NCBI RefSeq assembly: GCF_002009425.1
Contig: NZ_CP019936.1
Coordinates: 2,343,297 to 2,407,296 of the forward strand
Reading direction: 5' to 3'
DNA: 64,000 nucleotides
Source of the DNA: Thiosocius teredinicola
GTDB taxonomy: Bacteria; Pseudomonadota; Gammaproteobacteria; Chromatiales; Chromatiaceae
The notes under the pieces were generated by a model that did not search any database, was not told where the DNA came from, and saw only the letters and a list, made by a program, of their open reading frames with translations. Positions within the stretch are counted from its first letter, which is position 1. The number at the start of each line of letters is the position of its first letter. The position numbers and the translations under genes are program-made. Of this stretch, positions 22,475-37,948 are shown one piece after another.

Positions 22475-22533
22475 ATTTGTCCGCTGACAAAGCTAAGCTG
22501 TTCTTTTTGTTCAGGTATTGGAGATCAACGACC

Positions 22534-22980
22534 ATGTCATCGACTAACTATTCAAGCCCGGGCCATTCACATGGCAATTGCTCCCACGCGGGCAAGCACG
22601 GCTGCGGCGGTCACTGGAGCGGGGCCAATATCGCAGCGATGGTGCTGGGTTTCATCGTGTTTCCGCCGATCGGATTGGTGGTGCTGGTGTGGACGCTGAT
22701 GGGGCGTCCGATTCAGGACCTACCGGGTTGGGTACGTGACAAATGGTCACAATACTTCGGCAATGCCGGCGTGACGCATTCGCACGGCAACAGCGACAAC
22801 GTGGTGTTCGACGAATACCAACAGACGCAGCACGATCGAATCCGCGAGATCAAAGACGAAATCAAGCGACGTGCCGAGGCGTTCCGTACCTTCCGCTTTG
22901 ATGCCAAGCGTCGCCAGGACAAGGCGGAGTTTGACGAGTTTATGGCGAGTAACCCGGGGAAGGGCGGCGACGAGCGCTGA
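22534..22980 (+). CDS. DUF2852 membrane protein with His/Cys-rich N-terminus
   Basis: 148 aa. One transmembrane segment (IAAMVLGFIVFPPIGLVVL, about 34-52) in the DUF2852 arrangement, then a helical charged C-terminal half (about 95-140). The N-terminal 30 residues are unusually rich in potential ligands (GHSHGNCSHAGKHGCGGHW), with more His in THSHGN. GGAG lies 10 bp before the chosen ATG; an ATG 57 bp upstream is less likely. Divergent from and probably repressed by the TetR gene. Function unknown. Confidence 0.75.
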   Translation: MSSTNYSSPGHSHGNCSHAGKHGCGGHWSGANIAAMVLGFIVFPPIGLVVLVWTLMGRPIQDLPGWVRDKWSQYFGNAGVTHSHGNSDNVVFDEYQQTQHDRIREIKDEIKRRAEAFRTFRFDAKRRQDKAEFDEFMASNPGKGGDER

Positions 22981-23016
22981 AGACTCCGCAATCCATTGGT
23001 CTCCCCCAGTGGCTTG

Positions 23017-23048
23017 GGCCGTTGCGGTAACCGCAACGGCCTTTTTTT
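23017..23048 (+). terminator. Intrinsic terminator of DUF2852 gene
   Basis: Perfect 11-bp stem GGCCGTTGCGG/CCGCAACGGCC with a 3-nt TAA loop followed by seven T. Confidence 0.93.
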
Positions 23049-23156: not shown

Positions 23157-23711
23157 CTATTCGAACAGCAAGCGGTTGATCTCGATGGCTACTCCACCAA
23201 ACCCGAGCCCGCTGCGATAGCCGTCGATCAGTGGGTTGTTGATGGGGTCTACACCGACATGCAGGGCGACCAGTTTCCAATCATCGCCTTCTTTGATCAT
23301 GCTCGCGGTCCACTTGGAATCGAAGGCGAACGTGCGGCCGTCGGCAAGTTCGTAGGTGTCGGTCGATGTCCCGTGGCAGATGCCGAATTTGCCTTCGTAG
23401 ATATTGGTCTTGATCGTCGCTTGAGGCTCAACGTGCATGCTTTTCAGGACGGCATCCGGTTTCTTGAACCAATCGTAAAACAGCTGTTCGACAGTGCGCC
23501 CGTCGGTCAACACCTCCTGGTTCATTACGGTGATGACGTAATCTTTGTGGAGATGGGATTGAAGTAGCGACGGCTGGTCGTTGTTGACCGCTGTTTGCGC
23601 CATCGTCAGGAGTTCGCGCAGTTGGCGATGGTCTTCCTCGGTACCGGTGTCGGTGGCTGCCGTTGCACCGAACGAGAGCAGAATCAGCAATACCATCAGA
23701 TAGTTGTTCAT
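23157..23711 (-). CDS. Exported NTF2/SnoaL-like protein, last gene of biosynthetic operon
   Basis: 184 aa with a signal peptide (about 1-18, ending ATA). The rest is an NTF2-like cone fold (DHRQLRELLTMAQTAVNND, DYVITVMNQEVLTDGR, KWTASMIKEGDDWKLVALHVG). Such folds serve as small enzymes or ligand binders. ATG overlaps the PAP2 stop by ATGA and GAAGGAG lies upstream, so it is translated with the cluster. As the only soluble exported product of the operon it may act on or carry the final product in the periplasm; this is inference. Confidence 0.75.
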   Translation of the reverse strand: MNNYLMVLLILLSFGATAATDTGTEEDHRQLRELLTMAQTAVNNDQPSLLQSHLHKDYVITVMNQEVLTDGRTVEQLFYDWFKKPDAVLKSMHVEPQATIKTNIYEGKFGICHGTSTDTYELADGRTFAFDSKWTASMIKEGDDWKLVALHVGVDPINNPLIDGYRSGLGFGGVAIEINRLLFE

Positions 23712-24376
23712 CCTTTTTGCTCCTTCACAAGATGTGGGACGGGCTGTAGATACGATTGAGGCGAGCGACCGAGTGCGATACCGCGGCAACCCAAGGCAAT
23801 CAACAATCCGGTCGCTACATCGAGCACATGATGTTGATGGGTCAGCAGGGTTGAAGCCGCGATACAGGCGAGCCATGCCCACAGTGCCGTTTTGATCGCG
23901 CGCGGTGCACCTTCGCCGCAAGCCGAAACGGCAATCGTTGCAAAAACGATATGCAGGGAGGGGACCAGGTTGTGCGGGGCATCAAGGGTAAACATCACGC
24001 CATACAGTGTTTCGTAGCCGGCAGGCAGCATGCGCTCAAACCCCAGTTGCGCAGGAAACAGCAACCACAACACCGCAGCGACAAGCAGGCCCAGTATGGC
24101 GGCCAACGCTTCACTTCGTGCACGTTCTCGCGGGATAGTAAACAAGGGCAGACAGAACAGCAGGAACAACGACAGGTACACCCAGACCGCCGCAGGTACC
24201 AAAGGGATATCAAGCTCGATCGGCAGATACAGAGCCAACAGATCGTTACGTTGGCTGGTCAGCCAGTTAACGCCGCCGTAGATCGGAAAAAACAACAGGT
24301 CGATCACCAGACACCATAGCAACACGGTGCGCAGCGTGGGCCAGTCCGGGATGCGAAACCATTGCTCGTTGTTCAT
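23708..24376 (-). CDS. PAP2-family membrane phosphatase/phosphotransferase
   Basis: 222 aa, about six membrane helices. Phosphatase motifs: PSLHIVFA (C2, catalytic His) and THQHHVLDVATG (C3, with the second His and Asp); the first KxxxxxxRP-type motif is not clear, so activity on a specific lipid phosphate is uncertain. The architecture resembles the inositolphosphotransferase/Aur1-like PAP2 branch. The ATG overlaps the desaturase stop by ATGA. In this cluster it could dephosphorylate a lipid intermediate or transfer a head group. Confidence 0.8.
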   Translation of the reverse strand: MNNEQWFRIPDWPTLRTVLLWCLVIDLLFFPIYGGVNWLTSQRNDLLALYLPIELDIPLVPAAVWVYLSLFLLFCLPLFTIPRERARSEALAAILGLLVAAVLWLLFPAQLGFERMLPAGYETLYGVMFTLDAPHNLVPSLHIVFATIAVSACGEGAPRAIKTALWAWLACIAASTLLTHQHHVLDVATGLLIALGCRGIALGRSPQSYLQPVPHLVKEQKG

Positions 24377-25329
24377 AGCGCCTGTTCCAGATCCCGTTCG
24401 AGCTCGGGCGACGGCTTGCCCGGGTCTGGCTCGTCGGTATGCCGTGGGCCCAACCACAGGCTCCAATAAATACGTGCCCAGCCGGGACGTCTCAAGGAGT
24501 GGTCGATCAGCTTGGGCAGGGCATTCCAAGGTGCAGCCGGGTACTGATGATGCGCGAGGTGATAGTGATAGTTGAGGAACACCGCGCGGGTGAAAGCGCT
24601 GATGCGCAGGTTCCAGGCGCCGTTGCGGATGTCTCTCGGCGTCCATGCATGCGTCGCGTACTGCACTGCACACCACACCATGGCGAATGACCAATAACAG
24701 GCCAGCCAGCCAAGCAGACTCAGATCCAACAAAATGAACAGAGCCACTTGTATGCCGGCGCTGAGCAGGATGTCACGAACGACGGTTGCGGACGGTGCTT
24801 TGCAGACATCCTCAACCATCGGCCGCATGCCGTAGAATTCAGCGATCTTCTCCCGGAACAGCCTGGTCTTCACGACACCTGCGATATACAGCAGGTTGGC
24901 CAGCGGCACCGATAACCAGTAGAACCCACCCAGCAGACAGAAAAGACGAAACGTCGCCAGCCACATTGGGGTGCCCGGCGGGCAATAATCGTACAGTTCG
25001 ACGTCGGTTCGGTTGCGCCGATGGTGGCCCAGATGACAAACCCGTTGGATGATGAATCCTGTGGGGAAGAACGCGGCAGACACGCGACCGAGTGCGTCGT
25101 TTACCCGGCGGTTGGGATGGAGCACGCCGTGCACCGCCTCATGCAGCAACGAGAAGATCGTGTTGTTGATCAATGCGAAGCCGACACAGGCGACTGCCCA
25201 GTGCCACCAGAACTGCGCATGCGATGCCAACCACAAGAACCCCGCCGCAGCCGACCAGGAAAGTACCGCGATGACGATATTGAGCCTAACCGGGATTGGC
25301 CACGTTGAACGCAAGGCGGTGCTGTTCAT
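24373..25329 (-). CDS. Membrane fatty acid desaturase
   Basis: 318 aa, integral membrane di-iron protein. Histidine boxes: HEAVH (about 64-68), HLGHHRRN (about 100-104) and HYHLAHHQ (about 256-263), giving the eight-His set of acyl desaturases/hydroxylases. Introduces double bonds or hydroxyls into acyl chains, using an electron donor not encoded nearby. Start ATG overlaps the previous stop (ATGA). Its place within the radical SAM cluster points to an acyl moiety in the product. Confidence 0.88.
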   Translation of the reverse strand: MNSTALRSTWPIPVRLNIVIAVLSWSAAAGFLWLASHAQFWWHWAVACVGFALINNTIFSLLHEAVHGVLHPNRRVNDALGRVSAAFFPTGFIIQRVCHLGHHRRNRTDVELYDYCPPGTPMWLATFRLFCLLGGFYWLSVPLANLLYIAGVVKTRLFREKIAEFYGMRPMVEDVCKAPSATVVRDILLSAGIQVALFILLDLSLLGWLACYWSFAMVWCAVQYATHAWTPRDIRNGAWNLRISAFTRAVFLNYHYHLAHHQYPAAPWNALPKLIDHSLRRPGWARIYWSLWLGPRHTDEPDPGKPSPELERDLEQAL

Positions 25330-25988
25330 TGTCGTTTGCCGTTGATGAAATGAGTGTAGGGAGGAAGGGGCGATAATGCGGTGAGTGTTTCACCGGGTGC
25401 GATCACGCACCCGGGCCCGATACTGGATCGGGCGCCCACCACGGCGTAGCTGCCGACCGATACGGCGGCGATATCGACCAGAAACCGACCATCCTCGATC
25501 CGCGACAGGTGGCCGCTGATCAATGCCTCGGTTCCAATGACACTTCCATAGGCGACCTCAAGATAGGGCCGGTCCAGACTGCGGGCACCCGGCGCCCAGA
25601 ATGAGGCCGGGTTGACCTTGGCACCCCACAGGTTCAACCAAAACGGGTACAGCCCCGGCACCAGCCGTAGCAGTTCTTCCAGCCAGGGAATGCGATTGAA
25701 CGGCATTTGCAGCTGCAATAGCACCCACCATACTTTGAAGGCGGTGCTGTCTTGCCGGAGATCGCGGCCCTGAGGCTTACCGAACAGCGCCATCACGATG
25801 CGCGCTGTCACTGGCGGTAGAACGTAGAGTAGGGCAACGAACGTCGCCGTCCAGCCGACCGCGCCCGTAGTGAGCACCGTCGCCACGGATACGATGACGG
25901 CGATTGCCAATAACGGTATGGCATTGGCCAAAAGGGCAAAGCGGCTGATCGGCTCGACCTGCAGATCCGGTTGGGTGGCTTTATGCAT
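25326..25988 (-). CDS. Membrane-associated left-handed beta-helix (hexapeptide) acyltransferase-like protein
   Basis: 220 aa. Two hydrophobic helices at the N-terminus (about 20-65), then a short hexapeptide-repeat region (about 125-205) with runs such as GTEALISG, IAAVSVGSYAVVGARSSI and GPGCVIAPG. Members of this fold transfer acyl groups to sugars or lipids. It is short of a full acetyltransferase and lacks an obvious catalytic His loop, so the reaction is uncertain. ATG overlaps the AurF-like gene stop by 8 bp. Confidence 0.7.
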   Translation of the reverse strand: MHKATQPDLQVEPISRFALLANAIPLLAIAVIVSVATVLTTGAVGWTATFVALLYVLPPVTARIVMALFGKPQGRDLRQDSTAFKVWWVLLQLQMPFNRIPWLEELLRLVPGLYPFWLNLWGAKVNPASFWAPGARSLDRPYLEVAYGSVIGTEALISGHLSRIEDGRFLVDIAAVSVGSYAVVGARSSIGPGCVIAPGETLTALSPLPPYTHFINGKRQ

Positions 25989-26949
25989 AGTCAGGCAACC
26001 AACCCGCGAGGGCGTCGAGCTCGGGGCAGCGATGAAACAGTTTCCACGCGCGCGGTGCCAGGCGGCTTGATAAAAGGCTGGCGAGGAACTCAGGATTGTG
26101 TCGCAGCGCGACGATCTCTTTGGCGAAACGTGGACGCATTGGCATCAGTTCGGGATAGTCCAGGATTAATTGGTCGACAACCCGCATCCCGGCGCCTGTC
26201 GCACGTGGGTACATCATGGCCTTGAGAATCAGCACGAATAATCTCGCGTCCAATGTCCGGGCGTGCCGGCCGCGTGAGGCAAAGCACGTATCGTAGACCA
26301 AACGGTCGACCAGCGTGTGGCGCCGCTCGTCATGGGTGTGTTCCTGGTGCACGGCAAGCCAGTTGGGTTCGGCCGCGCCAAGTGGTTCGTCGGCATCTGC
26401 TTTGCCGAGATCACGCGCCATCGCCAGCGACGATTCTTCGATGAAGAACAACAACCACAATGGATGCGCCAACCAACGGGCGGCCAACCCCATCGACTTG
26501 ATGAAACCGCGAATTTCCACCGATGGGGGAAAGAAGCAGAAATCCTTGTCGGCGTAGAGATCCGGCCTGCTTGCCTTGTTCAGTGCAACAAATGCCGCAT
26601 CGTGTTCTTCTTCTTCGCGCAACATCTCCGATACCAACTCGCTCAATACCGGATAGCCCGACTTAACAAGGCGTTTCACGATGGGTGGCAGGATGGCGTG
26701 AACCAGGTAACGCTCGAAGAGAACGACCACCTCATTGGTGCGCAAGGCATAGAGCTGTGAGTACCGCAGCTGGTGACGTGGTTCGAGATCTCGCCATATC
26801 GGGCTGTAGAAGAGTTGACTGTACTCAGCCGGAAGGAACAGCTTGTTGTGGTCTATCTGACCGAGCTGCACCTGCTTGGTCCGCCCATGCCCTGAGCGGA
26901 TTGCGTTGAGCATCTCGCATGCCAACGTCTCAGGATCTTTGCCAGCCAT
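25981..26949 (-). CDS. AurF-type di-iron N-oxygenase
   Basis: 322 aa. Matches the p-aminobenzoate N-oxygenase (AurF/CmlI) family: seven ligand positions are all visible in the known order, Glu in LFERYLV (about 79), ExxH in EEEEHDAAF (about 113-116), Glu in FIEESSLA (about 171), and HxxxExxH in HTHDERRH (about 204-211). AurF-like enzymes oxidise amines to hydroxylamines, nitroso, nitro or azoxy groups, although some members act on carbon. The start could be the ATG at 26949 or a GTG one codon earlier; both overlap the radical SAM gene. It suggests an N-oxidised product. Confidence 0.88.
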   Translation of the reverse strand: MAGKDPETLACEMLNAIRSGHGRTKQVQLGQIDHNKLFLPAEYSQLFYSPIWRDLEPRHQLRYSQLYALRTNEVVVLFERYLVHAILPPIVKRLVKSGYPVLSELVSEMLREEEEHDAAFVALNKASRPDLYADKDFCFFPPSVEIRGFIKSMGLAARWLAHPLWLLFFIEESSLAMARDLGKADADEPLGAAEPNWLAVHQEHTHDERRHTLVDRLVYDTCFASRGRHARTLDARLFVLILKAMMYPRATGAGMRVVDQLILDYPELMPMRPRFAKEIVALRHNPEFLASLLSSRLAPRAWKLFHRCPELDALAGWLPDYA

Positions 26950-28288
26950 CACTCAACTCAGACCATTGTCCGAAGTACATACCCTGTTTCTTGAACACCT
27001 CTTTGCGAAATACCGGATTGAACCGCAAGTAGGTGAACAGCCGGACGGGGTCTCGCAGATTGGTTTTGAAATCCAACATTCGGTGCACCAGCGACGGCAG
27101 CGAACTGAACGTTGAACGTGCCTCGAAGCAGGCCTCAGTGAGTTCGTCCGGCGTCATGCGAGCCGGTACGAACGGTGCGTAGTTGAAACGGTATGCGGGG
27201 TGCAGCCACCATTTGCCGTCATACAACAGACGGTTCTGATCGCGTAGCGAATCGTACAGTGGCGTGCCCGGATAGGGCGTCAGCATATTGAAGGCGGCAA
27301 AGGTGAACCGGCTTTCCAAGGCAAAATCCAGCGTGCGGCGTATCGAATCCCGGGTTTCGTGATCGTAGCCGAGGACGAACGCGGCCCAGGTCTGCAAGCC
27401 GTAGTCCCGCAGTATCTTGACCTGACTGCGGTAGCCATCGAAAGCCCGCAAATTATGTCCTTTGTGCATATCGCTCAGGTTGTCGGGCGTGATCGACTCG
27501 AAGCCGATGACATGCCCCAGGCAACCGCTCTGGATCATCAGGTCCATGAGTTCGGCGTCTCGCAACATATCGAGGCTGGATTGGCTCACCCAGCGGATCT
27601 TCAGCGGTATCAGGGCCTTGAACAGTTCCTTGGCGGCTTTGCGGTTGGCGCACAGATTGTCGTCGACAAAAAACACCAGGCGACGATTTTGGTCTGCAAT
27701 CTCCCGAACCACCTCGTCGACATGGCGTACGTAGTGGCGGCTATTGAAATACTGCGCAATCGTGCAGAAATTGCAGTGGAAATGACAGCCGCGTGAAAAC
27801 TGCATCAGGGTCATCGGCAGATAGCCTTTGCCGGCGAACAGGTCGCGCCGCGGAAGCACACCGGGATGGGCAACCCCGGGCGAGGCGCGATACACGCGTT
27901 TTAGCTGATGTTGTTCGGCATCCTCGAGCATGGATTGCCAGATCGTCTCGGCGTCGCCAAGCAAAATGGCGTCGGCATGTTCGAGGCATTCATCCGGGAC
28001 CAGGGTCGGATGAACGCCGCCCATGATGACGGGGACTCCACGTCGGCGATACTCGGACGCGATTTCGTAGGCACGCTTTGCCGTGTAGGTTTCGACGGTG
28101 ATGGCGACCAGGTCGGTTGGCTCGTCGAACGCAATGCTTTCCATTCGATCGTCAAAGAAGCAAACGGAATGATGCGGCGGCGTCAGGGCAGCCAGCACAC
28201 CGATCTGTAGCGGCTCCATTCGCCCTTCGTCGATATAAGGGCCGTGTAGCATGCGGCCTATGTTAGGTTTGATCAGCGTAAGCTTCAT
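26930..28288 (-). CDS. B12-binding-domain radical SAM enzyme (copy A)
   Basis: 452 aa from the ATG giving MKLTLIKPNIGR. The N-terminal Rossmann-like B12-type domain (about 1-140; VIMGGVHPTL, HADAILLGDAE) lacks the classic DxHxxG cobalamin-base motif, as in many BchE/HpnJ relatives. The radical SAM core has CHFHCNFC (cysteines about 168, 172, 175), FVDDN, GFES, and YPGTPLYDSL near the C-terminal domain. Such enzymes methylate, cyclise or couple unreactive carbons. Start overlaps the upstream radical SAM stop by about 26 bp. Paralogous to the three other copies here. Confidence 0.88.
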   Translation of the reverse strand: MKLTLIKPNIGRMLHGPYIDEGRMEPLQIGVLAALTPPHHSVCFFDDRMESIAFDEPTDLVAITVETYTAKRAYEIASEYRRRGVPVIMGGVHPTLVPDECLEHADAILLGDAETIWQSMLEDAEQHQLKRVYRASPGVAHPGVLPRRDLFAGKGYLPMTLMQFSRGCHFHCNFCTIAQYFNSRHYVRHVDEVVREIADQNRRLVFFVDDNLCANRKAAKELFKALIPLKIRWVSQSSLDMLRDAELMDLMIQSGCLGHVIGFESITPDNLSDMHKGHNLRAFDGYRSQVKILRDYGLQTWAAFVLGYDHETRDSIRRTLDFALESRFTFAAFNMLTPYPGTPLYDSLRDQNRLLYDGKWWLHPAYRFNYAPFVPARMTPDELTEACFEARSTFSSLPSLVHRMLDFKTNLRDPVRLFTYLRFNPVFRKEVFKKQGMYFGQWSELSDGWQRS

Positions 28289-29645
28289 CGGTTTGCGCCA
28301 CACTTCCCAGGTGGCGACCTTGTTTATTGCGGATTTCCGATCGAGAGATCCAGTTGGCCAACACGGCGATATCCAGGTTCTTCCACGACGTCTGTCCTAC
28401 AGGCCAAGGCATCAGTCGCGACGCAATTGAACCCGGGGCATAAAACCGAAGGCGCGCGTCGTAGCAGCCTTGCTCGAGTTGCTCCGGTGTCATGCCTTCG
28501 GGTCGGAAGATTGCTTGTCCATAGTGATAATCGGGTTCGAGCCACCAGCGGCGATGTAGCAAGCGGCCCTCCGTCCGCAGTCGGTCGTAGACGGGGCTTC
28601 CCGGCATCGGCGTCAGTGGATTGAAATTGGCAATGCACAGCTTCTGCTCAATGCTGAAATCGACGGTCTCGGCAAAGCTTGAAACGCTGTCGTTTGCATA
28701 CCCGAAAACAAAGGTGCCGTACACGAGAATGTTGCGTTGGCGCAGGCGCTGAAGTGCCTGCTCATAAGTAGGCCGGCCTTTGTTCCAGCCTTTTGCCATC
28801 TCTTTCAGGTTGTCGGCTTGGAGCGATTCGAAACCGATCAGCACCATGAAACAGCCACTCTCAGCCAGCAAATCGAGGACAGCTTCGTCGCGACAAACGT
28901 CGAGACTGATCTGACAGCACCACTGCTTGCGCCGATGGAACGGCACACTGCGGTTGTAACGCACCAGCACTTTCAGCAAGGCAATGAGGGCCGATTTCGA
29001 AGCAAACAGGTTGTCGTCGACGAAAAACACGCGACGATGCCTCGCCTCGTCAAATGCACGCACGGTCTGCTCGATGCTGTAAGCGGCCTGATGCGATCCA
29101 TAGAAAGATCGGATCGAGCAGAAGTCGCAGACGAAGCGACAACCGCGGCCATGTTGAATCAGCGATAGCGGAGCGTACCTTTTGTTGCGGAAGACACTGC
29201 GATCGGGTTGAACATGAAGTTGCGTTTGCGGCGACGTATCTCGGTATACAGCGCGCAGTTCGCCCGACATGAAGTCTTTGAGCAGTAACTGCCAGACGCC
29301 CTCTGCATCGCCCACGACAACCGCATCCGCATACTGCTGGACCTCTTCGGTACACAAGGTGGGGTGATAACCGCCCATGACGACGGGGATTCCACGGTCG
29401 CGGAAGTGCTGCGAGAGTTGATATGCGCGGCGCGCGGTGAATGTTTCGACGGTGATTGCCACCAGGTCTGCGGAGTGCTCCAGATCGATCGGTTCAACAC
29501 GCTCATCCATGAACGTGAAGGCGATATCGGGTGGAGTCAGCGACTTGAGCAAGGCCGGGGCGAGTGGCTCCATCGCATCTTTCGAGCGGAAATCTCCCAT
29601 GTTCGGGCGAATCATCAAGATACGTTCGAGTCGTCGCTTGGTCAT
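28263..29645 (-). CDS. B12-binding-domain radical SAM enzyme (copy B)
   Basis: 460 aa. B12-type domain about 1-140 (ITVETFTARRAYQLS, VVMGGYHPTLC, YADAVVVGDAEG), then the radical SAM core with CRFVCDFC (about 169-176), FFVDDNLF, ISLDVC, IGFES and MPGSPVYDRL. Closest to copies A and C by these shared words. ATG overlaps the GNAT-gene... neighbour on its 5' side by ATGA. A tail rich in polar residues (last about 40) is not shared with the others. Substrate unknown; one of four such enzymes in the operon. Confidence 0.88.
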   Translation of the reverse strand: MTKRRLERILMIRPNMGDFRSKDAMEPLAPALLKSLTPPDIAFTFMDERVEPIDLEHSADLVAITVETFTARRAYQLSQHFRDRGIPVVMGGYHPTLCTEEVQQYADAVVVGDAEGVWQLLLKDFMSGELRAVYRDTSPQTQLHVQPDRSVFRNKRYAPLSLIQHGRGCRFVCDFCSIRSFYGSHQAAYSIEQTVRAFDEARHRRVFFVDDNLFASKSALIALLKVLVRYNRSVPFHRRKQWCCQISLDVCRDEAVLDLLAESGCFMVLIGFESLQADNLKEMAKGWNKGRPTYEQALQRLRQRNILVYGTFVFGYANDSVSSFAETVDFSIEQKLCIANFNPLTPMPGSPVYDRLRTEGRLLHRRWWLEPDYHYGQAIFRPEGMTPEQLEQGCYDARLRFYAPGSIASRLMPWPVGQTSWKNLDIAVLANWISRSEIRNKQGRHLGSVAQTDEAYADQT

Positions 29646-30769
29646 AAGCAGGCGACTTCCGTGTGAAACGCTTGGCGTGCCGCGTCACGGGCAGCTTGGC
29701 GCCCTTCGTCCCAGTGCACCAGGAAAAACCGGCTTCGATAACGCAAAGCTCTCAGTTTGCGCAGCGCCGCCAGGTAGGGATGGGTATCCGCAAAACCCAG
29801 CACCACAGTATCAAGACGCCGGGTTCTTGCCAGGTTAAGCAGGCTGACAGCAAGCCCGGGAAGCGCCTGTTCGTTTCCTGCCATAATTGCAAGGTGCGAC
29901 AAAAAGGCCTGATTCAGCACTTTGCCGGGGCGCGGCAGGACAGGGTACCCGGCCAGTTTCAGCGGGACGTTCAGCAAACTCCGCGTACCGGCGAGAAGCG
30001 GCGCATAGCCTGTTACACGTTGCTGGCGGCATGCTCTCTGATCCCAGAGTGTTCCGCATCCGACCGGTTGTCCGTCTTTAAGCAGCAACAGGGTGTTCTC
30101 CATGTCCCAGCCGACTGTTCCGAGTGCTCGCAGTTCGGCGCTGTCCCAATAGGGATACATGCCGAACTGACGGCCGTAAGTTTGAAGCAGGGTGGCAATG
30201 CTGTCGAGGTCAGACGGTGAGGCCTGACGGATCTTGAATCCCCGTGGCACCTTGAGCGCGGCGAAACCCTGTTTGGTGCTGGCGACGAGCGTGACGAATT
30301 CCGATACTGGAAGATAGGTGGGCATGCCTTTGATACCCGAATTCAATAGGCGCGCTGCCGTGGTATTGTCGCTGAGGATGCTGGTCAGGTAGTAAGGCGT
30401 TTCTTGACGCCCATCGTTCAGCAACTCGCGGCATTGCTCGAATCCACGCAGAATCACCCGCGATCGTGCCCGCCAGTGCGGCAACACCCGCAACTGGCCC
30501 AGGTAACCCAGGCGCCGGTGTTCACCATTGATCCAGGCGCGGCGGACCGAGCGCGAGAAAAAACCGACCGGTTCGCCCTCATTCGTGCTGGCAAGCAGGG
30601 TGCGCGAGTCGCCCTCGATCGGGCAGGCCGCGAAATAACTCGGTTCGCGTTCGAAGCTGATCGTTGCCCAACCTGGTAATGGCGTCGAACTCAAGATGCT
30701 GCGCAGAGCGGCCTCGTCGTCGGCTCCTGCGTCGGTGAAGGCGTAGCGCGCAGTCGCAGTGCTACTCAC
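29642..30769 (-). CDS. GNAT-superfamily acyltransferase-like protein
   Basis: 375 aa, soluble. GNAT-like folds are suggested by SFEREPSYFAACP, GFFSRSVRRAWING, RLGYLGQLRVLPHWRARS (acetyl-CoA-loop region) in the N-terminal half and a second, more degenerate half (GFKIRQASPSDLDSIATLL onward). Probably transfers an acyl or aminoacyl group in the pathway. The GTG start overlaps the preceding radical SAM stop (GTGA) and is preceded by GGAGG, so coupling is strong. Catalytic residues cannot be assigned by eye. Confidence 0.65.
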   Translation of the reverse strand: MSSTATARYAFTDAGADDEAALRSILSSTPLPGWATISFEREPSYFAACPIEGDSRTLLASTNEGEPVGFFSRSVRRAWINGEHRRLGYLGQLRVLPHWRARSRVILRGFEQCRELLNDGRQETPYYLTSILSDNTTAARLLNSGIKGMPTYLPVSEFVTLVASTKQGFAALKVPRGFKIRQASPSDLDSIATLLQTYGRQFGMYPYWDSAELRALGTVGWDMENTLLLLKDGQPVGCGTLWDQRACRQQRVTGYAPLLAGTRSLLNVPLKLAGYPVLPRPGKVLNQAFLSHLAIMAGNEQALPGLAVSLLNLARTRRLDTVVLGFADTHPYLAALRKLRALRYRSRFFLVHWDEGRQAARDAARQAFHTEVACL

Positions 30770-32127
30770 TGGACCTCCAACAGGCTCCCTTTCCAGCCTT
30801 CGTCTCCCAGCGGGAAGTTGTTGCGCTGATCCACTTCGCGCCGGTGCATGAGATTGATCATCAGGTAATTGCGTGCCATGAAGGCATCACGGCCTGCGAG
30901 CTCACGCAACCAGCGGCTGCCTATGCTGCGCCAGCTGTAGAAACTTTTCCTCGCGCGCAGGCAGCCTTCGCGTATCGCGTGGTGGCTCAGCGATGCAGGG
31001 TGGAAAGGCACATCGTTGTATCGATAGCTGTCGTCCAGCCACCAAGCCGGGTAGCGCAGCCTGCCTTGCTGTTCCAATTGGCTGTACAGCGGTGTTCCGG
31101 GAAACGGTGTGAGATGGTTGAATGCCGCCAGATAGAAACCGTTGCTGATTGCAAAATCAGCTGCGGCGTCAAAGCTTTCTTGTTGATCGTTGTCATGCCC
31201 AAACGTGAAAGTGCCATACACCCGGATGCCATGGCGTTTGAGATTGTCCAGGGCTTGCGGATAGCCACCGCGCATCGTGTTGAATGCCTTGCCCATCGCT
31301 TTCAGATTGGTTCGGTCCAGGCTCTCGAAACCGATCAGGGCGCCGCGGCAGCCGCTGCGCCGGGCGAGTTCAAGGAATTCCTCGTCGTGCGCCGCGTCAA
31401 TCGACAGCTGCGTTACCCAGCGCAGCTGCAGGGGGATCAGTGCCTGCATGAACAACTTGGCCTCGGCCGGGTCGTTGGCGAAGTTGTCGTCGACAAAGAA
31501 AAAGAAGCGGTGCCGGGATTTCAGTGCGGCAAGCTCGTTGATCACACTGTCGAGTTCGCGGCGCGTACTCTTACGGTCGAAGAAGCTCTGAATCGCACAG
31601 AAGCGGCATTTGAAACGGCAGCCACGGGCCGTTTCAACCAAGCCTATCGGCAGATAACGCTTCTTGGCGAACAAGCTGCGGTCGTAGTGCGCTGAACCTT
31701 TGCCAAATCCGCTCTCGCCGCCATGGTAGGTCGCTTGAAGCGTTCCATGCCGGGCGTCGTCAAGCAGTTGCGCCCATACGCCTTCGGCCTCTCCAATCAC
31801 TACAGCCTCGGCGTAGCGCGCTGCATCCTCTGGTCGGAGGGTCGCGTGGAAGCCGCCCATCACCACCGGTACACCACGGCGACGGTATTCGGACGCAATC
31901 TGTGCCGCGCGGCGGAAGGTGTAGGTTTCCACGCTCAACGCAACCAGGTCGGTTGGCTCGTCGTAGGGAATGACCTCCATACGGTCGTCGTAGAAACGCA
32001 GTTCGATATCCGACGGTGTAAGTCCGGCAAGCGCGGCTATCGACAGGGGCTCCATCTGCCACGTGCCGATATAGCGCGTGTCACCCTGTTTTCGGCCAAT
32101 CGCCGGGTGAATCAATGTCAGCCGCAT
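30766..32127 (-). CDS. B12-binding-domain radical SAM enzyme (copy C)
   Basis: 453 aa. Opens MRLTLIHPAIGR, very like copy A. B12-type domain about 1-140 (VVMGGFHATL, YAEAVVIGEAEG), radical SAM cysteines CRFKCRFC (about 170-177), FFVDDNFAND, QLSIDAA, IGFESLDR, FPGTPLYSQL. Shared phrases with A (RMEV/RMES, YDEPTDLVA, SVETYT) indicate recent duplication. Overlaps copy D upstream by 10 bp. Substrate unknown. Confidence 0.88.
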   Translation of the reverse strand: MRLTLIHPAIGRKQGDTRYIGTWQMEPLSIAALAGLTPSDIELRFYDDRMEVIPYDEPTDLVALSVETYTFRRAAQIASEYRRRGVPVVMGGFHATLRPEDAARYAEAVVIGEAEGVWAQLLDDARHGTLQATYHGGESGFGKGSAHYDRSLFAKKRYLPIGLVETARGCRFKCRFCAIQSFFDRKSTRRELDSVINELAALKSRHRFFFFVDDNFANDPAEAKLFMQALIPLQLRWVTQLSIDAAHDEEFLELARRSGCRGALIGFESLDRTNLKAMGKAFNTMRGGYPQALDNLKRHGIRVYGTFTFGHDNDQQESFDAAADFAISNGFYLAAFNHLTPFPGTPLYSQLEQQGRLRYPAWWLDDSYRYNDVPFHPASLSHHAIREGCLRARKSFYSWRSIGSRWLRELAGRDAFMARNYLMINLMHRREVDQRNNFPLGDEGWKGSLLEVQ

Positions 32128-33527
32128 ACCGCCCGATTCTTGCTTTTTGAGCTTACGCTGATGTTCTCCGTTGTATCGGACTGAATCATGTGCAGCGGAT
32201 TGGAGAACAGGACATCGGTCTGCCAGTCACAGGTATAGAAACGGTCGAGGTTGTGGGCATAAAAGCGGTAACCGAGGTTCGCACTGATTGCCAAGGGTTT
32301 GACATTTCGTGCCTTTACCAAACGTTTGGCGATGGCTTTCCAGCCGTATACCTGCTGCCATGCTCGCTCATGACCGATACGCAACTCGTCGACCGTCATG
32401 TTCTTTGGTTGAAACACCACGTGTTGGCCGTCGTACAATTCCCAATTGTGGGTGAGGATGCGTCCTTCGGCCTGCAAGCGGCGATGGATCGGGGTGCCCG
32501 GGAAAGGTGTGAGCACGGCAAAGCGCGGCAGATCGATGCCGGCGTCGACGGCAAACTGCACCGTGGCGTCGAATACGTCCGGCGTGTCGTGATCCAGGCC
32601 AAAGACGAAGCACCCTTGTATCGCGATACCGAGTTTGTGCAGGTCGCCGATCAGTTGCTTGTAGCCGACTGAGGCATTGAAGCGCTTCTTGGCGTCGCGC
32701 AGGCTTTCCTCGGAGACGGTCTCCAGACCAAGCAACAGCCCTCGACAACCGCTCTTGGCCATCAGCTCCATCAGTTCATCATCATGCGCGATCAGCACGG
32801 TGGACAGGCCATACCATTGCACCCGCAGAGGCATCAGCGCACGAAACAGCGCTTTTGCATAATCCGTATCCGATACCAGGTTGAGATCGATGAAGATGAT
32901 CTTCTTCTTGCCCACCCGGCGAATGTCTTCGACTACCCAGTCGATCGGTTTCTGATACTGCTTTCTTCCCCAAGCGGCCGGCGCCACGCAAAACTCACAA
33001 TCGTGGGCGCATGAGCGTGTGGCTTCGAATACCGCCTGGGTGAGAAAGAGTCGTTTGTCGAAGAGTTCGCGGCGTGCGAACGGCATGTCGTCGAACGAAA
33101 GGTCGGGGCTCTGATAGTAGGCGGACTGCATGACACCCTGACTGAAGTCACGCAGCAGTTGGGGCCAAGACTGTTCCGCATATCCCACGCAAATGGCGTC
33201 GGCATATTGCCGGGCTTCGTGCGGCATCAGTGTGACGTGCGGCCCGCCGAGAACGACCGGGATTCCGCGTTCGCGGAAATGCTTGCTGAGTTCGTACGCC
33301 CGAGGTGCTGTGCCGGTGATTACGGTCATGCCGATGATATCGGCATCCAGGTCATCGGGGATGTCCTGAATGCCTTCGTCGATCAGCTCGATATGGGCGT
33401 CCAACTCGGCCGGAATCAATGCCGCCAGCGTCGTCAGAGTCAGTGGCTGGTACCGCAGGGACTTGCGAAAGATGCCCCCTTTATGCCGATAAAGCGGTCC
33501 TTTGGGTGAAATCAGTACGACCTTCAT
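32118..33527 (-). CDS. B12-binding-domain radical SAM enzyme (copy D, divergent)
   Basis: 469 aa. Same layout as A-C but more distant: MKVVLISPKGPLYRHKGG start, VVLGGPHVTL in the B12-type domain, cysteine motif CAHDCEFC (about 173-180) preceded by EATRS, FIDLNLVSD instead of FVDDN, LLLGLETVSEES, FPGTPIHRRL. The LxHxG/BchE-type fold is known for oxidative cyclisation, methylation and C-C coupling. First radical SAM gene of the operon, overlapping the GH3 stop by ATGA. Confidence 0.88.
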   Translation of the reverse strand: MKVVLISPKGPLYRHKGGIFRKSLRYQPLTLTTLAALIPAELDAHIELIDEGIQDIPDDLDADIIGMTVITGTAPRAYELSKHFRERGIPVVLGGPHVTLMPHEARQYADAICVGYAEQSWPQLLRDFSQGVMQSAYYQSPDLSFDDMPFARRELFDKRLFLTQAVFEATRSCAHDCEFCVAPAAWGRKQYQKPIDWVVEDIRRVGKKKIIFIDLNLVSDTDYAKALFRALMPLRVQWYGLSTVLIAHDDELMELMAKSGCRGLLLGLETVSEESLRDAKKRFNASVGYKQLIGDLHKLGIAIQGCFVFGLDHDTPDVFDATVQFAVDAGIDLPRFAVLTPFPGTPIHRRLQAEGRILTHNWELYDGQHVVFQPKNMTVDELRIGHERAWQQVYGWKAIAKRLVKARNVKPLAISANLGYRFYAHNLDRFYTCDWQTDVLFSNPLHMIQSDTTENISVSSKSKNRAVCG

Positions 33528-35143
33528 GTCTTCTCCAGCGCTCCGGTGCGCACGAAATACTCAAACCAACCGTCGTCCTTGTCGAGCGTTGGGACTTTGA
33601 TGGTAGCCAAAGGGGTTCCGCGTGTCTCTCTCAATCGCTGGGCGATGGCGGCAGACAGTCGTTTCACCCTGACGGCGCACACCGGCTTCAGTTGCCCGAT
33701 CGCGCGTGCGTGGCGATAGTGCAATACCTCACCCAATGCTTCCTCGACTCGCTGTGCCAAGCCTTTTGCCGACTCACGGTCGCTCGCACCGGCTTCGAGA
33801 AACAGGTAGTAGCCTCGGTTGTCCGGCGTCGGTGCGACAAAAGCGTCGATGCCGGTGGGCAAGCGTTGTTGAAGCAACGATTCATCAAGCTTCTCTCCGC
33901 ACAGGTCGACGCACAGATCGCCACGGCCGACAAAGGCCAATGTCGGCGTCTGCCGGTAGTACCCGGTTACGACAACACGGTCACCCGTGTCATACCGCCA
34001 AAGCCCCGAACGCGTAGTGACTACCACACGACCCTGATCGCCTTCCCGCCATTCCCACAGCGGCATGCAGGTGCCGTCGTCTCTGTGCAGTTCGAGAAAG
34101 CTGCTGTTGACGGCCGCCACCGGGTTTGGCGGTGCGGTCAAAGGTACGCTGACGGCAGCCTCGGTGGATATCAGTCCCTTGGGTTGAATTGATACATTTG
34201 GAAAGCGCCGCCGTAAACCGGCGATATGCCTTGCCGCCGAGCCTTCGGTCCAGCAACTGATCAGGTTCAGCATCGGCCAGAGTACACGTGTATCGAGAAC
34301 GTTTCCGCGGGTTGCATCGCGCAGCCGTTGCGCGGTTTGAACGCCGTTCGAGCACACGGCTGCGAGTGCCGGCTGCAGCGCTGGTGGAGGCCCGTGAGGT
34401 AACGGGTTGACCAACGCATCGGCGATCTTGTCTGTTTGCTCGATCAACACATCCAGCAGGGGATGCAGGAATGTCGGGCTCCAGATGGAGATGAAGTTCA
34501 GGTCATCTGCGGCAGCAAGAAACAGTGCTGACCAGAAGAGCCATTCGTCGGAATCCGACAGGGTCGATAGGGCGAGAGGTACCGCTGAAATATGGACGAG
34601 TAGCGACGCGGCGTCGCCGAAATAGATCGCATCGTCGCCGGATGCCCGATCGGCAAATGCCCCAGTGCCTGCCGGACTCAACGCCCAGTAGGCACGCCCT
34701 TGCGCAAAGCCCGGCACGGTACGGCACAGATCGCACAGCCACGGGTAGAGCGCGTGGCGAAAGCCATCGAGTCCGGCGTTGCTGTAGGGGATGAGCTTCG
34801 CAGCCAGCGTGGAACCGGAAGTCCATTCCTGGTGCACGACCGGCTCAGCACATAAGGTGCTTTGGCCTTTGCTCCATTTGGCCAGATCATGGGCTACGTC
34901 GTGATAGTCGACGATCGGCATCCGCTCGGCGTACTGGCCGTAGTTATTGATCGCCGAGAAATGAAACTTCTGGCCCAACTCGGCCCCGCTGTTGACGTCC
35001 AAGGCGTGCTGCAGGAAGTTCTCTTGGGCTGCGCGCGGTTGCCCACAGTCCCGCACAAACCGGGCGTGATAGCGTTGCGCTACGTCAAGCAGTTGATTCC
35101 AGGCGTTCGTCGCTGTCGTCACAGGGGGCTTCTGCCAGTCCAC
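33524..35143 (-). CDS. GH3-family acyl-adenylate-forming amido synthetase
   Basis: 539 aa, a member of the family best known from plant JAR1/GH3 auxin-amino acid synthetases. ATP-binding motif WTSGST (about 107-112) with AKLIPYS; a second nucleotide-loop motif YDTGDRV and a C-terminal lid domain with GRGDLCVDLCGEKL. These enzymes activate a carboxylate with ATP and transfer it to an amine. The GTG start overlaps the upstream GNAT-like gene by 59 bp, which is long; a GTG seven codons later (35122) is an alternative. It implies an amide (or similar) bond in the product. Confidence 0.85.
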   Translation of the reverse strand: MDWQKPPVTTATNAWNQLLDVAQRYHARFVRDCGQPRAAQENFLQHALDVNSGAELGQKFHFSAINNYGQYAERMPIVDYHDVAHDLAKWSKGQSTLCAEPVVHQEWTSGSTLAAKLIPYSNAGLDGFRHALYPWLCDLCRTVPGFAQGRAYWALSPAGTGAFADRASGDDAIYFGDAASLLVHISAVPLALSTLSDSDEWLFWSALFLAAADDLNFISIWSPTFLHPLLDVLIEQTDKIADALVNPLPHGPPPALQPALAAVCSNGVQTAQRLRDATRGNVLDTRVLWPMLNLISCWTEGSAARHIAGLRRRFPNVSIQPKGLISTEAAVSVPLTAPPNPVAAVNSSFLELHRDDGTCMPLWEWREGDQGRVVVTTRSGLWRYDTGDRVVVTGYYRQTPTLAFVGRGDLCVDLCGEKLDESLLQQRLPTGIDAFVAPTPDNRGYYLFLEAGASDRESAKGLAQRVEEALGEVLHYRHARAIGQLKPVCAVRVKRLSAAIAQRLRETRGTPLATIKVPTLDKDDGWFEYFVRTGALEKT

Positions 35144-35849
35144 GATTGAAAACCCGACGCGCCAGCGGCTTGAGGTTGTCGGAACTCAATTCCGTCAAAC
35201 AGGCCAGTTCGTCGCCTTGCGCGTACCCCGGGTTCGCCTGAAGAAAAAACTCAACCTCGGGTCGTCTGCGTTCAGATACGTCGACAATGGCAAGCTCTTG
35301 GCGCAAATGTCCGCGACTGGTGTCGAACTTGATCACGCCGAGCGCTGGCTGATAGTGGGCCCCGAAACGCTGTGTGGCCACGGCCTCCAGCAAGGCTCGC
35401 GCCTCATCCGGCGTCGCGTCGACAGGGTGCGGCCAATACGTCCGGCTGAAAGCGGCAAGATATCGATAGGTTCGAATGCCTTTGCTGATCAAAAACCAAT
35501 AGAGCGGCGCCTCGGGTTCGCGGGCTTTTTCGCGTCCCGCCTGGTAGAGCCATTCGAAAGCCAGCGCCTGGCTACCCCAATGCGCGCGGTTGATGATGGT
35601 ATCGCCGGAATAGATCACGCGTACCGGTTGACGTGTGGTCGGGTGCAGCGTCGCGTAAACCAGGTAGGTACTGAAACCCTGCAGGGCCTGGGTTTCATCC
35701 TGCAACAGCACGACTCGGTGTTTTTCACTGAGGTCTTCATCGAATCGGGCGCGGTCTATCTCGTCGTAGTGGGAGGCCATCAGCTGATACATCTGCTGAC
35801 GGTCATCCGCATTCAAGTCCGAAATATGGCGCGTCGTTGCCCTGAGCAT
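35085..35849 (-). CDS. GNAT-like protein, first gene of biosynthetic operon
   Basis: 254 aa, soluble. The N-terminal 130 residues look like a GNAT or acyl-homoserine-lactone-synthase-like acyltransferase core (HRVVLLQDETQALQGFSTY, VIYSGDTIINRAHWGSQ, FEWLYQ); the rest is not recognised. ATG chosen because it follows the promoter-like gap; the longer frame reaches into the intergenic region. It heads twelve overlapping genes. Might load an acyl chain or acylate an amino precursor; this is inference from context. Confidence 0.6.
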   Translation of the reverse strand: MLRATTRHISDLNADDRQQMYQLMASHYDEIDRARFDEDLSEKHRVVLLQDETQALQGFSTYLVYATLHPTTRQPVRVIYSGDTIINRAHWGSQALAFEWLYQAGREKAREPEAPLYWFLISKGIRTYRYLAAFSRTYWPHPVDATPDEARALLEAVATQRFGAHYQPALGVIKFDTSRGHLRQELAIVDVSERRRPEVEFFLQANPGYAQGDELACLTELSSDNLKPLARRVFNRGLAEAPCDDSDERLESTA

Positions 35850-35993
35850 GGTCCTGGATCTGGTGACTTCCCGGTCGAATCCTAGATTACAGCAAAACCG
35901 TGCACTTGCCGACCGGGGCGAAGCAGGCGATCCGCAGGTAAGGTATCGGCCCAACACCCAACGGCTACCCGGGCCGACAACGCTGATTTCGAC
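35850..35993 (-). promoter_or_regulatory. Short gap between kinase gene and biosynthetic operon
   Basis: 144 bp with no terminator. On the minus strand TAATCT (35897-35892 region) is a possible -10 but the -35 is poor. An interrupted inverted repeat CCGGTC (35871) / GACCGG (35911) spans it. Read-through from the upstream two-component genes therefore seems possible. Confidence 0.3.
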
Positions 35994-37253
35994 TCAGGCC
36001 ATCTTGATCGAAACGGTCACACCGGGGCCGGGATTGTTGCGAACGTTGATCTGCCATCCGTACATATCACACAACCGCTTGACGATATTCAGGCCGATGC
36101 CTTCACCGGCGCGCTGCGCACCGCGACCCTTGACGTGGCGATCGAAGATATGCGGAATCAGATCGTCGTCAATACCGATGCCCGTATCCTCGACGCTCAG
36201 CGAATCGCCGCGGATGATGATGCGGATGGATCCGGCATCGGTGTGCTTGATGGCGTTACGACACAGATTGCTGACAATGATCTCGAGGACTTTGCGGTTT
36301 ACCGGCACCCACAGCGGTTGCTCGACGTCGACTTCGAGGCCGACGCGCTCCTGGTCCAACAAGGGCGAGAGCTTCGCCATCTCCACCTCAGACACCTCGG
36401 CGGCATCGACCGCATCGGATCGATCGAGCAGGGTGGGTTCGCGACCCAGAATCAAGAACGCGTCGATCAGTTCCGATACATCGCGACAGGCGCGGCGAAT
36501 CATCTCGGCACGCTGTCTGCCTTTGTCCGACAGGCATTGTTCTGCGGCAAGAAACTGAGCCGCACCGTCGATGATCGTGATCGGGGTGCGCAGCTCATGG
36601 CTTACGTCGGAACTGAACTGACGTTCCCGTTCGACCATGGCATCCATGCGGCGGGCATAGTCGTCCAACGCGATCGCCAGCTCCTTGGTCTCGCCTTTGA
36701 GTTCCTGCAACGGAATCTTGGGCCGGCCCTGTTCCGGCGAGCTTTCCTCCAGCCGGCGAGCGATGCGCAGAATCGGCGACACGGCTCGGTCGCTGACGCG
36801 ATACGCGACCCAGCTGGCGCCGTACACAATGACCAGCAGCAGACCGATCGGTACCAGGCCGAACATGCCGACCAGCTTGTCGACGTTGTAGCCGGCAAAT
36901 ACCAGGTACAGGCGACCCTGAGCGTAATCCTCGATGTATACCGGCGTGGGTTTTTCACGTCCGCTCAGTAGCACGGAATCATGTAGCCCCGGCGCGAGGC
37001 CGACCAGCTCGCCCGGTACCGTATCGCCACCGCCGGCCGTGCCGAGATAGCCGATCAGGTTCCGGGTTCTGGGTAAGGGGAAGGTCGGATCCTGCAGTCT
37101 CGCATCAATAAAAGACTGAGCTTCCAGCGCAAGCGCCTGTTTGACCAGGATCTGCTGCAATATCCAGGTCACCCCGGCCACGCTCAGCAATACGGTGAAG
37201 AAGATGAACGCCGCCTGCAGCAGGTAGCGCTGCCAGCGTTCACGCTCTCTCAT
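35994..37253 (-). CDS. Sensor histidine kinase of OmpR-type two-component pair
   Basis: 419 aa inner-membrane kinase. Two transmembrane helices (about 12-36 and 128-152) flank a roughly 90-residue periplasmic domain; a HAMP-like linker, HisKA with phospho-acceptor in VSHELRTP (about 219), and HATPase motifs NLCRNAIKHT (N box), VEDTGIGI (G1) and GEGIGLNIV (G2) follow. ATG overlaps the response regulator stop (ATGA). Downstream of a lipid-modification cluster and upstream of the biosynthetic operon, both on the same strand, so it may sense envelope or lipid state. Confidence 0.92.
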   Translation of the reverse strand: MRERERWQRYLLQAAFIFFTVLLSVAGVTWILQQILVKQALALEAQSFIDARLQDPTFPLPRTRNLIGYLGTAGGGDTVPGELVGLAPGLHDSVLLSGREKPTPVYIEDYAQGRLYLVFAGYNVDKLVGMFGLVPIGLLLVIVYGASWVAYRVSDRAVSPILRIARRLEESSPEQGRPKIPLQELKGETKELAIALDDYARRMDAMVERERQFSSDVSHELRTPITIIDGAAQFLAAEQCLSDKGRQRAEMIRRACRDVSELIDAFLILGREPTLLDRSDAVDAAEVSEVEMAKLSPLLDQERVGLEVDVEQPLWVPVNRKVLEIIVSNLCRNAIKHTDAGSIRIIIRGDSLSVEDTGIGIDDDLIPHIFDRHVKGRGAQRAGEGIGLNIVKRLCDMYGWQINVRNNPGPGVTVSIKMA

Positions 37254-37948
37254 GGGGTGCCGCCGGGAACATACAAGCGATAGCCGATCCCGTGGACGGT
37301 GTGCAGCAGCTTGGTATCGAATGCCTTGTCGATGGCGTTGCGCAAGGTCGACATGTGGGTGCGCAAGGAGTCGCTGTCGGTCGGTTCATCTCCCCAGACG
37401 AAGGACTCGATCTCACGCCGGGTGACGACGCGATGGGTATTTTCCATCAGCAGCCGGAGTATCTTGAACGGTACCGGATTAAGGCGGATGCTCTGCTCGC
37501 CGCGCTGTGCCTCCAGCGTTTCGAGGTTGATCGTCAGGTCGCCAACCTCCAGCGAAGCGCGACCACTGACAAGCGAACGGCGCCACAATGCCTGAACCCT
37601 CGCGTAGACCTCCAACAGCTCGAAGGGCTTTACCAGGTAGTCGTCGGCGCCGGCGTCGAATCCCACCAGTTTTTGGTCGAGCGAATCGCGCGCCGTGAGC
37701 ATCAGAATGGGCACCGTGGAATGCTTTACCGACCGTAGCTTCTTGCACAGGTTGATCCCGTCGAGCCCGGGCAACGCCAGATCCAGGATGATGACATCGA
37801 AATCGCCCGATGCCGCCAGGTTTAAACCGCTCAGCCCATCGAGCGCATGGTCGGCCACATGGCCGCGGTCAGTGAAAAAGTCGACCAACAGCGCGGCGAT
37901 ATCGGCGTTGTCCTCGATGATCAACACGCGACCGTGAAAATCATTCAT
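37250..37948 (-). CDS. OmpR/PhoB-family response regulator
   Basis: 232 aa. Receiver domain 1-120 with phosphorylation Asp in VIILDLALPG (about 53), acidic pocket IIEDN, and Lys in LVKPFELLE; winged-helix DNA-binding domain in the C-terminal half (LNPVPFKILRLLMEN, RREIESFVWG, LRTHMSTLRNAID, GIGYRL). ATG at 37948 chosen since it begins right before the receiver; the frame extends 12 codons further without need. Its gene starts 32 bp after the CFA-like gene, so it is probably co-transcribed with the lipid cluster. Confidence 0.93.
   Translation of the reverse strand: MNDFHGRVLIIEDNADIAALLVDFFTDRGHVADHALDGLSGLNLAASGDFDVIILDLALPGLDGINLCKKLRSVKHSTVPILMLTARDSLDQKLVGFDAGADDYLVKPFELLEVYARVQALWRRSLVSGRASLEVGDLTINLETLEAQRGEQSIRLNPVPFKILRLLMENTHRVVTRREIESFVWGDEPTDSDSLRTHMSTLRNAIDKAFDTKLLHTVHGIGYRLYVPGGTP

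Follow-up and report, generated by a model that had tools for sequence, protein, structure and literature searches.

What does a bacterium make with a GH3-family ligase, two GNAT-like proteins and four radical SAM proteins encoded side by side? The question is raised by a 64,000-nucleotide (nt) stretch of Thiosocius teredinicola DNA (hereafter the window, taken from a single-contig genome of 4.79 Mb), in which positions 23157-35849 of the minus strand are filled by twelve consecutive open reading frames (ORFs; g1-g12, from 35849 down to 23157). The original prediction had read these same-strand genes as one overlapping biosynthetic operon, and adjacent ORFs do overlap at 11/11 junctions, by 4 nt at six and by 8, 10, 20, 26 and 59 nt at the others, where the 59-nt overlap holds only for the chosen GTG start of GH3. 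Families were assigned by Pfam and NCBIfam profile scans against each model's cut-off. The predicted identities of GH3, the four radical SAM proteins and the desaturase are borne out by Pfam, while AurF is borderline and the GNAT, PAP2, hexapeptide and NTF2 labels are based on weak matches. The sequences show which genes are present and which residues of their families are kept, and that the cluster is modular, co-inherited, patchily distributed and also carried on a plasmid; the reactions and the substrate class are inferred. We argue that the cluster is probably a biosynthetic operon devoted to an acyl-amide product (a lipid or a secreted amphiphile) and able to move horizontally, in which GH3 would form the amide and the radical SAM enzymes would alter unactivated carbons.

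A five-gene core in two fixed orders

Relatives were collected with an alignment (A1) of rSAM1, the first of the four radical SAM proteins (rSAM1-4), from the window and loci L012 and L013, both of which carry GNAT_A-GH3-rSAM1 in the window's order and an rSAM1 of 68-69% identity. A scan with it of 84,980 species, each represented by a single genome, gave 76 loci; rSAM1 is present in 76/76 by construction as the search query, and the other genes were counted per locus from a tblastn map. Going by the titles of their records, the loci belong to about ten phyla, namely Pseudomonadota, Planctomycetota, Acidobacteriota, Chloroflexota, Campylobacterota, Verrucomicrobiota/Kiritimatiellae, Myxococcota, Bacillota, Calditrichia, Elusimicrobia and UBP9. 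Strain names head six of the records (Citrobacter youngae ATCC 29220, Leminorella grimontii ATCC 33999, Malikia spinosa 83, Sulfitobacter algicola 1151, Aliiroseovarius subalbicans N1Y82 and Halomonas campaniensis 5AG), which makes the pathway directly testable.

A core of GNAT_A, GH3, rSAM1, rSAM2 and GNAT_B is complete in 62/76 loci. Numbered in that sequence, the core genes run 1-2-3-4-5 in 34 loci and 3-4-5-1-2 in 24, so that 58 of the complete cores follow two fixed orders. Among the 18 loci with another order, two (L037, L041) show 1-2-3-4-5 with an extra radical SAM gene, L065 and L075 are rearranged, and the other 14, mostly short loci or loci at contig ends, are without at least one core gene. 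Two long loci without the trio of GNAT_A, GH3 and GNAT_B have all or part of it elsewhere in the same genome: L053 has GNAT_B, GNAT_A and GH3 on another contig, and L049 has GNAT_A and GH3 with rSAM3 on the end of another contig. In genome G356, which is split likewise, one contig carries GH3-rSAM1-rSAM2-GNAT_B and a second carries GNAT_A-rSAM3-rSAM4-AurF-hexapeptide-desaturase. A search made with GNAT_A in place of rSAM1 found 9/369 genomes of the class, counting that of the window, and seven of them (G000, G058, G092, G210, G253, G266, G312) carry GH3 on the same contig; in G356 it lies on a different contig, and none is visible in G223, where GNAT_A sits at a contig end. In the genomes searched, homologues are thus clustered rather than occurring only singly, and their order is conserved, as expected for one biosynthetic operon.

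The centre of the cluster is GNAT_A-GH3-GNAT_B together with rSAM1 and rSAM2, and rSAM3/4, AurF, Rieske oxygenase, P450, desaturase and PAP2 are optional. A Rieske oxygenase family occurs in 19 loci and a P450 family in 7 (each label comes from one scanned representative). Among the named strains, Malikia spinosa has the form with four radical SAM genes, and Sulfitobacter algicola has two together with the Rieske gene. Among the 62 core-complete loci, rSAM3/4 and Rieske occur together in one, rSAM3/4 alone in 31, Rieske alone in 15 and neither in 15, a near-exclusion with a Fisher p of 2e-5 when shared descent is ignored. A family of 222-amino-acid (aa) membrane proteins (F1), not found in the window, often accompanies rSAM3-rSAM4 (20/32 core-complete loci with rSAM3/4 and 0/30 without). 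A genome-wide search with rSAM4 (E 1e-60) covered half (15) of those 30 loci that lack rSAM3/4. The top match was 43-49% identical in 15/15, and position and identity suggest that it is the genome's own rSAM2; the next match, at 34-38% in 14/15 genomes, is apparently the own rSAM1, and a further one at 33% turned up in a single genome.

On average, the radical SAM proteins are 56-65% identical in pairwise comparison, and GNAT_A, GH3 and GNAT_B 31-37%. The coupling chemistry thus looks less constrained than the radical chemistry, as might be expected if a shared carbon core were joined to different partners.

Four ancient radical SAM paralogues

The core members rSAM1 (g3, 32118-33527; up to 78% identity to relatives) and rSAM2 (g4, 30766-32127; in 69/76 loci) are B12-binding-type radical SAM proteins by Pfam, and the optional rSAM3 (g6, 28263-29645; 34/76 loci) and rSAM4 (g7, 26930-28288) accompany each other. 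rSAM4 is present at more than 45% identity in 34/76 loci, and the tblastn map counts 37/76 including three weak matches. Pfam Radical_SAM scores 47-56 bits in all four against a cut-off of 29.5, and the B12-binding domain exceeds its cut-off in rSAM1, rSAM2 and rSAM4. The window's copies share 33-43% mutual identity and all contain CxxxCxxC, which is also present in every complete relative of rSAM1-4 (69/69, 66/66, 33/33 and 29/29, respectively). A quick maximum likelihood tree was made of 140 radical SAM sequences, all from complete ORFs of 380-520 aa, with rSAM1 and rSAM2 thinned to every other member. It placed rSAM1-4 each in one clade (SH-aLRT 98, 94, 99 and 100), and the four paralogues are for this reason older than their spread across phyla. 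A fifth radical SAM protein, 43-45% identical to rSAM1, is encoded in Citrobacter and Leminorella clusters (L037 17606-18886, L041 19533-20834, L093 21606-22886).

The coupling trio and its form without rSAM1

The GH3-family acyl amide synthetase (g2, 33524-35143, 539 aa; 66/76 loci) matches the N-terminal (104.3 vs 23.6 bits) and central (GH3_M, 50 vs 23.6) Pfam models, with the C-terminal one below cut-off (20.3 vs 23.6). Its TE, R..D and GEK residues are invariant in 67/67 aligned sequences and the (T/S)xG(S/T) loop is found in nearly all by column counts; we take these to be the adenylation and catalytic motifs of the family, and the GH3 assignment of the original prediction is upheld by them.

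The GNAT-like acyltransferase family GNAT_A (g1, 35085-35849, 254 aa; 65/76 loci) has SGDT, W91, W118 and NP/GxEL as invariant residues in its alignment, and GNAT_B (g5, 29642-30769, 375 aa; 66/76 loci) perhaps holds two GNAT domains. Neither window protein has a Pfam match at E 0.001, and weak Pfam GNAT matches (E up to 0.1) were obtained for 4/26 aligned members of GNAT_A and 12/26 of GNAT_B. Against PDB structures the GNAT_B profile gave weak matches (E 0.009-0.8), mostly to N-myristoyltransferases and aminoglycoside acetyltransferases.

GNAT_A-GH3-GNAT_B also occurs in L011, L145, L146, L147, L141, L142 and Acinetobacter baumannii (L125); Burkholderia arboris (L124) has it too, though its GNAT_B is a weak match (23%). 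rSAM1 was absent from 9/9 carriers of the trio or of GNAT_A, including G223, in whole-genome or whole-record searches (E 1e-40; one replicon only for Burkholderia) that had no positive control of their own, the same query having found 4/369 genomes elsewhere. Two of the neighbourhoods hold a different radical SAM gene with 28-32% likeness to rSAM2, close to the trio in L145 and close to GNAT_A in L144. In A. baumannii (L125 5536-12900) the genes stand in the row EmrA-like, EmrB-like, GNAT_A, GH3, TolC-like, GNAT_B, and the trio adjoins HlyD and MFS genes in L141 and HlyD and RND genes in L142; no efflux genes were seen beside it in L147, L011, L145 and L146, where part of the ORFs are annotated. 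The efflux genes beside these three trios argue for export in those forms. Separately, a fusion of about 910 aa with an RnfD/NQR2-like membrane domain and FG-GAP and UnbV/ASPIC repeats adjoins the trio in L011 (11768-14503) and L145 (5315-8074), both without rSAM1, and L146 has an unscanned 903-aa ORF in its position.

Patchy distribution and plasmid carriage

The cluster is sparse around Thiosocius. A GH3 relative was found in 7/93 genomes searched, the own one included (6/92 others), and in 0/8 congeners (two of the eight less than 90% complete). With the own genome counted, rSAM1 occurs in 4/369 genomes of the class (E 1e-120) and GNAT_B in 5/398 of the phylum. A congener that is 80% complete (G006) keeps the flanking block of kinase, CMAS, DUF1365 and oxidase in synteny, with other ORFs after the kinase and no cluster; for this reason the window's cluster appears to have been inserted at the kinase flank, and judged by these comparisons the copy looks horizontally acquired.

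In Citrobacter portucalensis a cluster is carried by a 159 kb IncF plasmid typed as mobilizable, with GNAT_A, GH3, rSAM1-4, GNAT_B, PAP2, NTF2-like, desaturase and an extra radical SAM gene; it has no AurF and no hexapeptide-like gene. No megablast match to the Citrobacter cluster was found in E. coli genomes. rSAM1 also matched 97 non-Citrobacter plasmid records; of four examined, the three annotated ones hold a lone radical SAM gene, and the unannotated fourth (Vibrio) showed no other cluster family.

Accessory genes

Lipid-type accessory enzymes are present in the operon as had been predicted, the clearest being a membrane enzyme of the fatty-acid-desaturase family (g10, 24373-25329; 38/76 loci), with 82.7 bits against 29.7 for Pfam FA_desaturase and the His boxes HEAVH, HLGHH and HLAHH. 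Its relatives have H..HH in 36/36 and two copies of it in 28/36, and NCBIfam gives a distant carotenoid-hydroxylase-like match (30.5 vs 475 bits). The PAP2-like integral membrane protein (g11, 23708-24376; 27/76 loci) is below the cut-offs of Pfam PAP2 (23.2 vs 27.2) and PAP2_C, and its relatives keep PS[LG]H in 24/25 and the second motif in 21/25. The NTF2-like/DUF4440 protein (g12, 23157-23711; 31/76 loci; 24.8 bits vs a DUF4440 cut-off of 25.2) is probably exported, having an N-terminal hydrophobic segment by hydropathy. The hexapeptide-like protein (g9, 25326-25988; 9/76 loci; Pfam Hexapep 22.3 vs 27, below cut-off) has two hydrophobic segments by the same measure.

The AurF-like di-iron protein (g8, 25981-26949) had been given a central place in the original prediction, as the enzyme that oxidises nitrogen. 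Its gene is found in only 10/76 loci, and its Pfam score (29.9 vs 29.6 bits) is 0.3 bits over the cut-off, both of which speak against that place; N-oxidation by AurF would rather appear peripheral to the pathway. The residues of its ExxH and HxxDExxH motifs are invariant in 11/11 sequences. Eight residues invariant in this alignment (E79, E113, H116, E171, E172, H204, E208 and H211) presumably correspond to the di-iron ligands of AurF, a solved structure of which matches the g8 profile at E 0.035. The gene tends to travel in a module: the hexapeptide-like gene is present in 7 of the 10 loci with AurF, and the desaturase in 9.

Relation to known systems

The nearest precedent is OlsH, a bacterial GH3 of Singulisphaera acidiphila that makes N-acyl ornithine (PMC12493201). 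What the OlsH/OlsI ornithine-lipid pathway shares with the cluster is a GH3-family enzyme from a bacterium, encoded in a lipid-producing operon. However, the OlsH model (NF052613) gives the window's GH3 22.1 bits against 620, no OlsI-type alpha/beta-hydrolase was recognised among the 12 window genes, and a family called hydrolase-like on visual inspection only (F3) has no member in the window. The two GNATs and four radical SAM proteins have no counterpart in the three-gene OlsH operon as described in PMC12493201, in the text of which the term 'radical SAM' does not occur.

The ladderane and polyunsaturated hydrocarbon clusters of Kuenenia and Desulfotalea, which are type II fatty acid synthesis (FASII) clusters, also contain several radical SAM genes among lipid genes, one of them described with a B12 domain (PMC2649909). 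Those clusters rest on FASII genes such as FabF paralogues and phytoene-desaturase-like genes, none of which is among the 12 window genes; the ladderane-type radical SAM model TIGR04072 gives the window's radical SAM proteins 55-63 bits against 360, and the text of that article mentions no GH3. On gene content and profile scores, then, the cluster is neither the OlsH pathway nor a ladderane-type FASII cluster.

Individual components have more distant parallels. The families of hopanoid HpnJ/HpnR, BchE, PhpK and, for rSAM2, the tryptophan-C2-methyltransferase 6wte share the B12-binding plus radical SAM architecture and score highest. The plant GH3 acyl acid amido synthetases share family and family residues with the window's GH3 and are its nearest solved structures, yet they are remote (best 45 bits) and differ in context and probable substrates. 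What we describe is a biosynthetic gene cluster built from known enzyme superfamilies, whose gene set has no described pathway in the literature searched. That literature was the open-access part, with subscription papers and preprints outside the scope, and among the matches listed there no description of this cluster was found, in agreement with the original claim that no characterised pathway has this set.

Proposed pathway and alternatives

In the operon that we favour, GH3 would adenylate a carboxylic acid that is most likely hydrophobic, such as a fatty acid, and couple it to an amine or amino acid, while GNAT_A and GNAT_B would transfer further acyl or aminoacyl groups, so that the trio would act as the scaffold-making unit. 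rSAM1 and rSAM2, joined in the larger form by rSAM3 and rSAM4, may then act on unactivated carbons with SAM and probably cobalamin, by C-methylation or by C-C bond or ring formation. Swappable oxygen-using enzymes (AurF-like and desaturase-family here, Rieske or P450 elsewhere) would finish the product, and the membrane and exported proteins (hexapeptide-like, PAP2, NTF2-like) would place it, PAP2 and the exported protein acting at or beyond the membrane. Leaving OlsH aside, the order of these steps follows the known chemistry of the enzyme families. As to where the product ends up, the efflux genes argue for its leaving the cell in the minimal form, and the lipid enzymes for the membrane in the large form.

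Several observations weigh against this reading or parts of it. The GNAT folds of GNAT_A and GNAT_B rest on weak profile matches: the GNAT_A profile found no credible match in the PDB, and comparison of the two profiles with each other gave a probability of 11% over 77 columns. As to cobalamin, the B12-binding match of rSAM3 is below cut-off (30.9 vs 32.1 bits), and the BtuB model, as a sign of B12 uptake, gave 11 matches in the own genome, none over cut-off. No NCBIfam cut-off is reached by any of the four radical SAM proteins or, with the OlsH model, by GH3; against the HpnJ/HpnR, BchE and PhpK families the best scores of the radical SAM proteins are 71-103 bits for cut-offs of 481-600, the highest being rSAM4 against BchE (103 vs 481), and scores this far below allow no choice between methylation and ring formation. 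Pairwise distances correlate among all seven main proteins (r 0.69-0.90; the ORFs used are complete and 0.75-1.3 times as long as the window's protein), as co-inheritance would have it, in a comparison without a housekeeping-gene control. Some phylum labels may also be wrong, since most loci are metagenome bins.

The favoured reading has two sub-cases. Under one, to which we would give not quite an even chance, the product is a membrane aminolipid that stays in the envelope: an OlsH-like GH3 would join an amino acid to a fatty acid, the second chain would be added by a GNAT, the radical SAM enzymes would methylate or cyclise the chains, and PAP2 and the NTF2-like protein would act at the membrane. 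The OlsH precedent speaks for it (PMC12493201), as do the desaturase-family, PAP2 and two-helix proteins within the operon, the weak similarity of GNAT_B to N-myristoyltransferases and the weak matches of the radical SAM proteins to the ladderane-type lipid model. The low score of GH3 with the OlsH model and the lack of a recognised OlsI-type hydrolase in the window count against an aminolipid, and presence of rSAM1 in so few genomes of the class is sparse for a membrane lipid. The efflux genes beside three trios without rSAM1 point away from it too and towards the other sub-case, a metabolite that is secreted and diffusible (signal, metal binder or antibiotic), with the trio building it and radical SAM enzymes and oxygenases decorating it, which we hold to be possible while well short of even. 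Three types of efflux genes (L125, L141, L142), a patchy distribution with plasmid carriage and oxygenases that are swappable as in secondary metabolism agree with secretion. Neither the window's operon nor the set of twelve families mapped across the 76 loci includes a recognised exporter, self-resistance or carrier-protein gene, however, and the missing exporter suits an envelope lipid; PAP2 and desaturase likewise point to membrane substrates, and four other trios showed no efflux genes among their partly annotated neighbours.

That the enzymes build no new compound and modify a cell component such as lipid A, a quinone, a carotenoid or another cofactor is improbable. PAP2, the exported NTF2-like protein and the distant carotenoid-hydroxylase-like matches of the desaturase would suit such a role, but the trio exists without rSAM1, three times with efflux genes, and no marker of such a pathway was found among ten flanking proteins scanned. 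Chance assembly of unrelated genes in a genomic island is hardly credible: the cluster is island-like and absent from congeners, but the same genes recur in the same orders over about ten phyla and are kept together even where they are split between contigs.

Beyond the favoured biosynthetic operon itself, we tentatively propose a bolder form, which may well prove wrong. GNAT_A-GH3-GNAT_B would be the scaffold unit of a new pathway class found in about ten phyla and on a plasmid, and the larger form would run four old and specialised cobalamin radical SAM paralogues sequentially on one hydrophobic acyl amide, giving a multiply methylated or polycyclic carbon skeleton new to bacteria. If the favoured reading holds, a pathway unnamed by Pfam and NCBIfam would be common to, and exchanged among, bacteria of many phyla. 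Its products would form a new acyl-amide class, its cobalamin radical SAM enzymes would add as many as four new activities, and GH3 enzymes of bacteria would have another role besides making ornithine lipids.

Surroundings of the cluster in the window

Upstream of the cluster (35994-41262) lie a two-component system (35994-37984), a cyclopropane-synthase-type CMAS methyltransferase, a DUF1365 gene and amine-oxidase-type genes. A consensus scan placed one promoter-like site at 36145-36172, within the histidine kinase gene, and no terminator-like site in 35700-36200; an Rfam scan at the gathering threshold and a tRNA scan of the window gave no match. Downstream, a convergent ORF (22477-22980) without NCBIfam match is followed at 23016-23042 by a strong 12-pair stem-loop and a T run on the plus strand, likely its terminator. 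A fatty-acid-hydroxylase-family gene (20857-21705), distantly OlsE-like (89.7 vs 475 bits), adjoins a TetR-type regulator 1.5 kb past the cluster end. Farther upstream, 45222-46616 encodes the methanethiol oxidase MtoX (787 bits vs a cut-off of 650).

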